A DNA stretch of 44,935 bases from an uncultured Verrucomicrobia subdivision 3 bacterium. GTDB taxonomy: Bacteria; Verrucomicrobiota; Verrucomicrobiia; Limisphaerales; UBA11358. The stretch spans positions 1 to 44,935 of the forward strand of contig CAISVF010000605.1 in the NCBI GenBank assembly GCA_903888765.1, in the 5' to 3' direction. Under the pieces are notes generated by a model. The model was not told where the DNA came from. It made no database searches and saw only the letters and a list, made by a program, of their open reading frames with translations. The number at the start of each line of letters is the position of its first letter. Position 1 is the stretch's first letter. Of this stretch, positions 5,749 through 7,059 are shown in pieces. Position numbers and translations under genes: made by a program.

Positions 5749-7059
5749 TTAGTGATGGGCTGCGGCTACGGGGCCAGCCAGTTGGCAGGCTTGAGCCAAC
5801 GCCGTTTCCACGGCGGCAATCCACGCGGCGGGGAAACGAGCGGGGTCGGTGAACCACGGGCGCAGGCTGGTGACGGCGAGCTCGCTGCCCTCCAGTTCAT
5901 CGGCGACGGCACAGCCGAGCAGCTCCCCGGTGCGGGGAAACCGCGCGCTCCATTCCGGCCCGACGGCGTGATCAAACTCAGCGGCGATGGCTTGAATGTT
6001 TTCATCGCTCAAATGCTTGCGGCGCAGCGCGTGCAATTCGGCGGCGGCGGGCAGCAACTTTTCGTAGGCGGTTTTTTTCTCCGGGATGGCGGCGGATAAT
6101 TCCTTGACGAGCATTTCCAACTGAACCTGCAAAAGGCAGGTGGGCAGGCCGCGACCGGCGAGGACGCGGCCCAGCCAGCGCACCTGCTGGAGAATCTGCT
6201 CCGGCTCATATTGACAGAGCGTGGCCTGCCACGCGGCGTCGCTGCGGGCGAACCGCAATCCGCGCTCCCCGTAGCGCGCGGCAAAGTAGGGAAGCCGCTG
6301 CCACAAAAGATCGGCGGAGCGGAGCGCGGCCTCGATTTCGCGGGCATCGGCCGGCACGGCGTGGCGGCCTGCCTCGGGGTTGATGGACGCGACCAGATAC
6401 AACTTGGACTCGGGCGCGAAGGGGAACAAAGCCAGGAAAATGGTTTCCAGGCGAGCAAAGAAATCATTGGCGGCACCAATGATCTGGGCGCGCTCCGCCG
6501 GGTTCAAGGGCAGCGAGTTCATGCGCTGCTGATACTGCGCCCAGCGGACGTAAACGGCCTTGCCATAAGAATGCACGTAGGCGAGGCCATCCTCCCCTGC
6601 GAGCAGGAACGCCCGAGCATAGAGCGAGCGTAGCACTTGCGCGCCCAGCGTGGAACCCTCCAGCACATAAAGGACGCCGAGAAGCACCAAGGGCTGATCG
6701 AGGGACTGTAGGCGGAGCTGTGCTACCGCCTTAAGCGCGGCTTCGGAGGCTTCCTTGAGGTCGGCCACGGCGCGCGGCTCAAAATACCGGAGGTCCTGCT
6801 GGAGCTGCGGGACTTTGCGCATTTCATTGATCCAGACGGAGGTGACGCGGGCGTCAGTGCAGCCGGCCAGCGCCGGCTCCAGCACGCCATGAATGGCAGC
6901 GAGGGCGCGGAGCTGTCCCACATAGGATTCCAGCGGCAACTGGCAGGCGGCGAGCGCGGGAAAGAACGGCGCGGTTTGCAGGCGGGCATGGGCGGAGAAG
7001 GTCTCGGCCTTGAGTTCTTCCGTCAACGTGAGTTGTTGTCCAAAAAGTCCGGGTTTCAT
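5749..7059 (-). CDS. BphO-like (biliverdin-producing type) heme oxygenase fused to an uncharacterised alpha-helical C-terminal domain
   Basis: N-terminal LTEELKAETFSAHARLQTAPFFPAL (candidate proximal His24) and LLGVLYVLEGSTLGAQVL (distal-helix motif typical of bacterial BphO-like proteins). Residues ~226-436 extend well beyond a normal HO domain. Confidence 0.78.
   Translation of the reverse strand: MKPGLFGQQLTLTEELKAETFSAHARLQTAPFFPALAACQLPLESYVGQLRALAAIHGVLEPALAGCTDARVTSVWINEMRKVPQLQQDLRYFEPRAVADLKEASEAALKAVAQLRLQSLDQPLVLLGVLYVLEGSTLGAQVLRSLYARAFLLAGEDGLAYVHSYGKAVYVRWAQYQQRMNSLPLNPAERAQIIGAANDFFARLETIFLALFPFAPESKLYLVASINPEAGRHAVPADAREIEAALRSADLLWQRLPYFAARYGERGLRFARSDAAWQATLCQYEPEQILQQVRWLGRVLAGRGLPTCLLQVQLEMLVKELSAAIPEKKTAYEKLLPAAAELHALRRKHLSDENIQAIAAEFDHAVGPEWSARFPRTGELLGCAVADELEGSELAVTSLRPWFTDPARFPAAWIAAVETALAQACQLAGPVAAAHH

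Follow-up and report, generated by a model that had tools for sequence, protein, structure and literature searches.

Photocobilins combine a B12-binding domain with a photoglobin, a globin related to phycobiliproteins to which biliverdin (BV) is bound in these proteins (PMC10979010). In the photocobilin SasPcob, BV is held with no cysteine link; Asp270 interacts with its rings A-C and Trp296 with ring D. The affinity of SasPcob for BV is raised about ten-fold by adenosylcobalamin (AdoCbl), whose photoconversion can be driven by red light when BV is present (PMC10979010). The bilin-binding globins called BBAG-2 contain an RGMC motif and also bind BV (Rockwell et al. 2023, PMC10151467). They are reported to be encoded by a separate gene that clusters with a B12 gene and one for a pre-PcyA bilin reductase, and the functions of BBAG proteins are not yet known (PMC10151467). 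Bilin globins associated with heme oxygenase (HO) and B12 (BBAG-2, PMC10151467) and photoglobin-B12 fusions (PMC10979010) are already on record. Here we describe a gene in which an HO and a photoglobin-like domain are joined in one polypeptide of 436 aa. It occupies an open reading frame at 5749..7059 (-) of a 44,935-nt stretch of DNA, referred to as the window (contig CAISVF010000605.1), from an uncultured Verrucomicrobia subdivision 3 bacterium. We consider it reasonably likely that this BphO-like HO and divergent photoglobin together make BV, hold it and dock onto a B12 protein of the same operon as a split photocobilin.

The two halves of the fusion protein

By family membership, the N-terminal half belongs to the BphO-like heme oxygenases. 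Residues 11-208 (6436..7029, -) match Pfam PF01126 (Heme_oxygenase) with an E-value of 2e-22 and 80.5 bits, the curated cut-off being 23. In the alignment with HO-1 from the PDB, the heme ligand His25 of the human enzyme corresponds to His24 (codon 6988-6990). The distal motif, YVLEGSTLG with its Gly-rich EGSTLG, is also BphO-like. This half would be expected to convert heme to BV, and it is the sole HO detected in the genome of the window, where no other was found. An earlier note on the sequence had described a protein about twice the size of an HO with an uncharacterised, helix-rich C-terminal part, from which it quoted ALRSADLLWQRLPYFAARYGERGLRFARSDAAWQATLCQY. That string is present in the translated protein, and the description holds: the HO ends at residue 208 of 436, and the AlphaFold2 model of the remainder (28-sequence input; pLDDT 91.4, pTM 0.87) is all-helical.

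The ~220 residues after the HO, here called the C-terminal domain (CTD), cover the region 5752-6384 singled out in that note. The CTD gave no match in Pfam or NCBIfam, whether alone or as 28 relatives, and no direct sequence match was found in the PDB. A plasmid search with the CTD and a viral-contig scan with the whole protein also returned no matches. For profile comparison, five photoglobin domains of cobalamin proteins encoded on plasmids served as the reference set; the Streptomyces member of this set matches photocobilin 8j2w (E 3e-22), and the Azospirillum member matches allophycocyanin (1.8e-6) and Pfam Phycobilisome (3.7e-9). Using hhalign, the CTD aligned with these photoglobins at a probability of 93.9 (P 1.6e-7). 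The score in a scripted rerun was 48.7, against a maximum of 20.9 among 200 column-shuffled photoglobin profiles, and the negative controls gave probabilities of 0.1 (reversed profiles) and 0.9 (HO domain). This supports the globin or phycobiliprotein-like family that had been suspected from the sequence. The matching stretch comprises residues ~234-348 (6016..6360, -) and is, judged by this profile kinship, a divergent photoglobin. The motif YGxRGxRFxxSDxxW belongs to the photoglobin core itself.

The fold comparison proposed in the earlier note gave a divided answer. Foldseek with the CTD model ranked photocobilin 8j2x first by probability (0.90), with various globins next, but all at E-values above 0.5, which are not significant, and the TM-score was low (TMq 0.39 for 8j2x); with the full-length model, only heme oxygenases were matched. 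Two other architectures were considered for the CTD. A tandem second HO domain was rejected on the hhalign probability of 0.9 mentioned above, and a globin duplicated inside the CTD was unsupported (N-terminal against C-terminal half, probability 4.4).

The globin core is flanked on both sides. Just before it stands an NPEAGRH motif (residues 227-233; 6361..6381, -), of which His233 is found in 27/28 relatives and is a Tyr in locus L041; inside the core, none of the His residues is invariant among the 28 relatives. After the core follows a helical extension of ~85 aa (residues 349-436; 5752..6015, -) with an invariant Asp387 and Trp402, which has no known match and is absent from known photoglobins.

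To locate SasPcob Asp270 and Trp296 in the CTD, the numbering of the deposited chain was used, in which Trp61 is residue 55; with this offset of 6, the two residues are D264 and W290. Both lie in the part of the chain with which the Streptomyces photoglobin aligns, and through this alignment they correspond to Asp274 (6238-6240), the Asp of the motif given above, and Trp295 (6175-6177) of the window protein. Neither residue varies among the 28 relatives and the five photoglobins, and we regard both as putative BV contacts. Phycobiliproteins and BBAG-2 have covalent Cys sites (CXRD, RGMC) that the CTD lacks. At the RGMC site, the window CTD has RGLP and its relatives have RGMP or a close variant, with no Cys there. 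Only a single position is a strongly conserved Cys (22/28 relatives), and there the window protein has Leu252.

Operon context and distribution

The gene is the third of a four-gene operon on the minus strand, which encodes a B12-binding protein, a histidine kinase, the HO-CTD fusion and a response regulator, in this order. The first two genes overlap by 8 bp, and gaps of 11 and 15 bp separate the kinase, fusion and response regulator genes. The B12 protein (8197..8874, -) has the Pfam domains B12-binding_2 and B12-binding, lacks a DNA-binding domain, and is of the photocobilin/CarH type: its best PDB sequence matches are the photocobilins 8j2w and 8j2x (E 1.6e-23), with CarH behind (about 4e-11). 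Its GELW...EH and EYH motifs align with the AdoCbl-holding residues of CarH-type photoreceptors (motifs: PMC10979010), and an Asn stands where the GxxH signature has Gly. The kinase (7071..8204, -) contains HisKA and HATPase_c domains by Pfam. Its N-terminal ~140 aa (7770-8204, -) matched no Pfam family, which also removed a PAS domain guessed by eye, and could possibly provide a partner surface for the B12/photoglobin pair. The response regulator (5056..5733, -) was recognised as Response_reg with E 8.5e-25.

The HO-CTD fusion is conserved in 26 loci across phyla and is thus not a chance read-through. The CTD identity to the window protein ranges from 30 to 76%, and the proximal His24 is retained in 25 of the fusions. 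The bearers, nearly all metagenome-assembled genomes (MAGs), belong to Verrucomicrobiota, Pseudomonadota (Rhodoferax, Azonexus, Methylococcaceae), Desulfobacterota, Acidobacteriota and others. The distribution is sporadic yet widespread: for every few hundred genomes sampled in a phylum, only 1 to 7 contained a CTD relative of any kind.

The earlier note had also associated this style of sequence with sensor domains beside B12-binding domains, and the relatives bear this out. Leaving aside four loci cut by a contig end (L008, L016, L028, L031), 22 were informative; in 21 of these, a B12 gene lies no more than about 1.3 kb away, in most cases together with a kinase gene. The exception is L021/L043, where a 51%-identical B12 gene occurs elsewhere in the genome. 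At this locus, a haem-NO-binding (HNOB) gene is located divergently to the fusion (L021:4583-5125 / L043:4342-4884, -). In later samples drawn without regard to B12 (L059-L062), a B12 gene was present in 4/4. In two Rhodoferax MAG loci (L019:5377-7350 and L013:4551-6527, both +), the HO, CTD and B12 domains even form one polypeptide of ~658 aa. Furthermore, the CTD gene at a second Azonexus locus (L039:4982-6291, -) lacks an HO part and immediately precedes the genes for a B12 protein and a hybrid kinase, which indicates that the pairing of CTD and B12 protein is independent of the fusion to HO.

CTD relatives also stand alone in other contexts, in Actinomycetota and Gemmatimonadota. The Actinomycetota proteins (L029:5686-6600, +; L040:5166-6170, +; L041:4255-6045, +; L042:5360-6376, -) have a different N-terminal region, and no B12 or HO genes adjoin them; two of the genomes, G587 and G760, gave no HO anywhere.

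Around the operon, an IS200-like Y1 transposase gene (Pfam E 2.1e-27) lies just upstream of the B12 gene at 9070-9462 (-). Just downstream, the segment 562-4373 (-) encodes a methyltransferase of the CheR type and a hybrid histidine kinase that contains GAF and two receiver domains; both genes perhaps belong to the same signalling region.

Proposed function and alternatives

In the function that we propose, BV would be produced from heme by the HO half and passed to the globin half, which would bind it non-covalently through Asp274 and Trp295. The loaded globin would then dock onto the B12 protein, giving a photocobilin with its two chromophore domains on separate chains, or on one chain in Rhodoferax. 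Absorption of light by BV (red) or AdoCbl (green) would break the Co-C bond and change the assembly, and this change would alter the neighbouring histidine kinase and send a signal to the response regulator. The more complete picture would be a self-chromophoring receptor, in which BV is handed over intramolecularly to a photoglobin paired with an AdoCbl domain and green or red light drives a two-component system in mostly phytochrome-less bacteria; for this fuller version we consider the case evenly balanced.

Several points weigh against the proposed function. The Foldseek matches of the CTD lack significance, the transfer of SasPcob residues to the CTD is a sequence alignment and not a superposition of structures, and the affinity for BV is poor in AbDPcob, one of the known photocobilins (PMC10979010). 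In one fusion (L023:5062-6672, +), Arg-Asp replaces the proximal heme-ligand His, and the HO half of this protein may be inactive. Finally, standalone CTD relatives occur in three genomes without a detected HO (G498, G587, G760), from which it follows that the CTD need not always hold a self-made bilin.

Part of this evidence would suit a CTD that has lost bilin holding and serves as an adaptor anchoring HO to the B12 sensor, with BV going elsewhere, e.g., to the N-terminal region of the kinase, or arising as a by-product of CO or heme handling. The weak BV affinity of AbDPcob illustrates that photoglobin domains can undergo such a loss, and both the HO-less genomes and the missing Cys sites are compatible with it. 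However, AbDPcob has lost the Asp at the BV-contact position, whereas the 28 CTD relatives keep both contact positions without exception, and SasPcob does not require a Cys. We regard an adaptor role as unlikely, if still a serious alternative to a bilin-holding CTD.

It is considerably less probable that the CTD binds heme as a globin, either to supply the HO with it or to sense a gas. Heme globins are among its globin-like Foldseek matches, His233 is nearly invariant, and the HNOB gene adjoins the L021/L043 fusion. On the other hand, this His, which L041 does not retain, precedes a core that has no invariant His of its own, and by sequence the CTD is related to the non-heme photoglobin/phycobiliprotein branch.

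The distribution of phytochromes bears on a further explanation. A scan for the PHY domain covered 23 genomes, 21 of which were counted as HO-CTD genomes; G498 and G501 (standalone CTD) were excluded, and G500 was included with the fusion presumed because the contig ends there. The PHY domain was absent in 18 of the 21; in the other three (G486, G490, G492), a further HO lies near a PHY match, at a distance of about 50 bp to 1.1 kb. For most of the other scanned HO-CTD genomes, the fusion was the only HO found. An HO dedicated to phytochrome is thus disfavoured, since PHY is absent or served by another HO. It is hardly credible that the protein serves iron acquisition or a phytochrome as an ordinary HO whose C-terminal extension is incidental: the HO domain is ordinary by itself, but its association with a B12 protein of the photocobilin type and with a two-component system is conserved across phyla, tri-domain HO-CTD-B12 fusions exist, and phytochromes are missing or provided with their own HO.

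Comparison with described bilin and B12 photoreceptors

No report of an HO-photoglobin fusion was found in the literature searched; the 2022 photoglobin paper was outside its scope and an earlier description is possible. The fusion touches on the source of the bilin in photocobilins, on photocobilin partners, and on the role of HO- and B12-associated bilin globins, as it physically ties a BV-making enzyme to a bilin-type globin and, in two genomes, to the B12 domain as well. It also supplies single-gene constructs, of which the Rhodoferax HO-photocobilin is the cleanest, and a candidate optogenetic part that would require no added biliverdin.

Regarding its HO half, the protein resembles BphO, the HO of bacteriophytochrome operons, in the YVxEGxxLG motif, which is present too in the phytochrome-adjacent HO of L044. 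It differs from BphO in having a C-terminal globin and in being linked to a B12 protein rather than a phytochrome. The B12 protein of the operon, in turn, has retained W...EH and ExH, the residues responsible for holding AdoCbl in the CarH photoreceptor; unlike CarH, it has no DNA-binding domain and would signal via the kinase instead. Compared with BBAG-2, as known from its published description, the CTD family has RGMP where BBAG-2 has RGMC, apparently at the same place, so that the covalent Cys is missing, and its HO is fused to the globin.

There is also a close likeness to the photocobilins SasPcob and AbDPcob (PDB 8J2W, 8J2X, 8J2Y; PMC10979010) and to photoglobin-B12 proteins, which likewise combine a photoglobin-type domain with a CarH-type B12 domain carrying these cofactor residues. 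In the CTD family, the positions aligned with the BV-contacting Asp and Trp of SasPcob are invariant. Unlike in photocobilins, the window photoglobin is fused to an HO and has the ~85-aa helical extension and an NPEAGxH motif, while the B12 domain, fused only in L013 and L019, is the product of a separate gene. Because the B12 domain and the photoglobin are on separate genes, the window system is better said to work like a split photocobilin than to be one, and this is probably how it operates.
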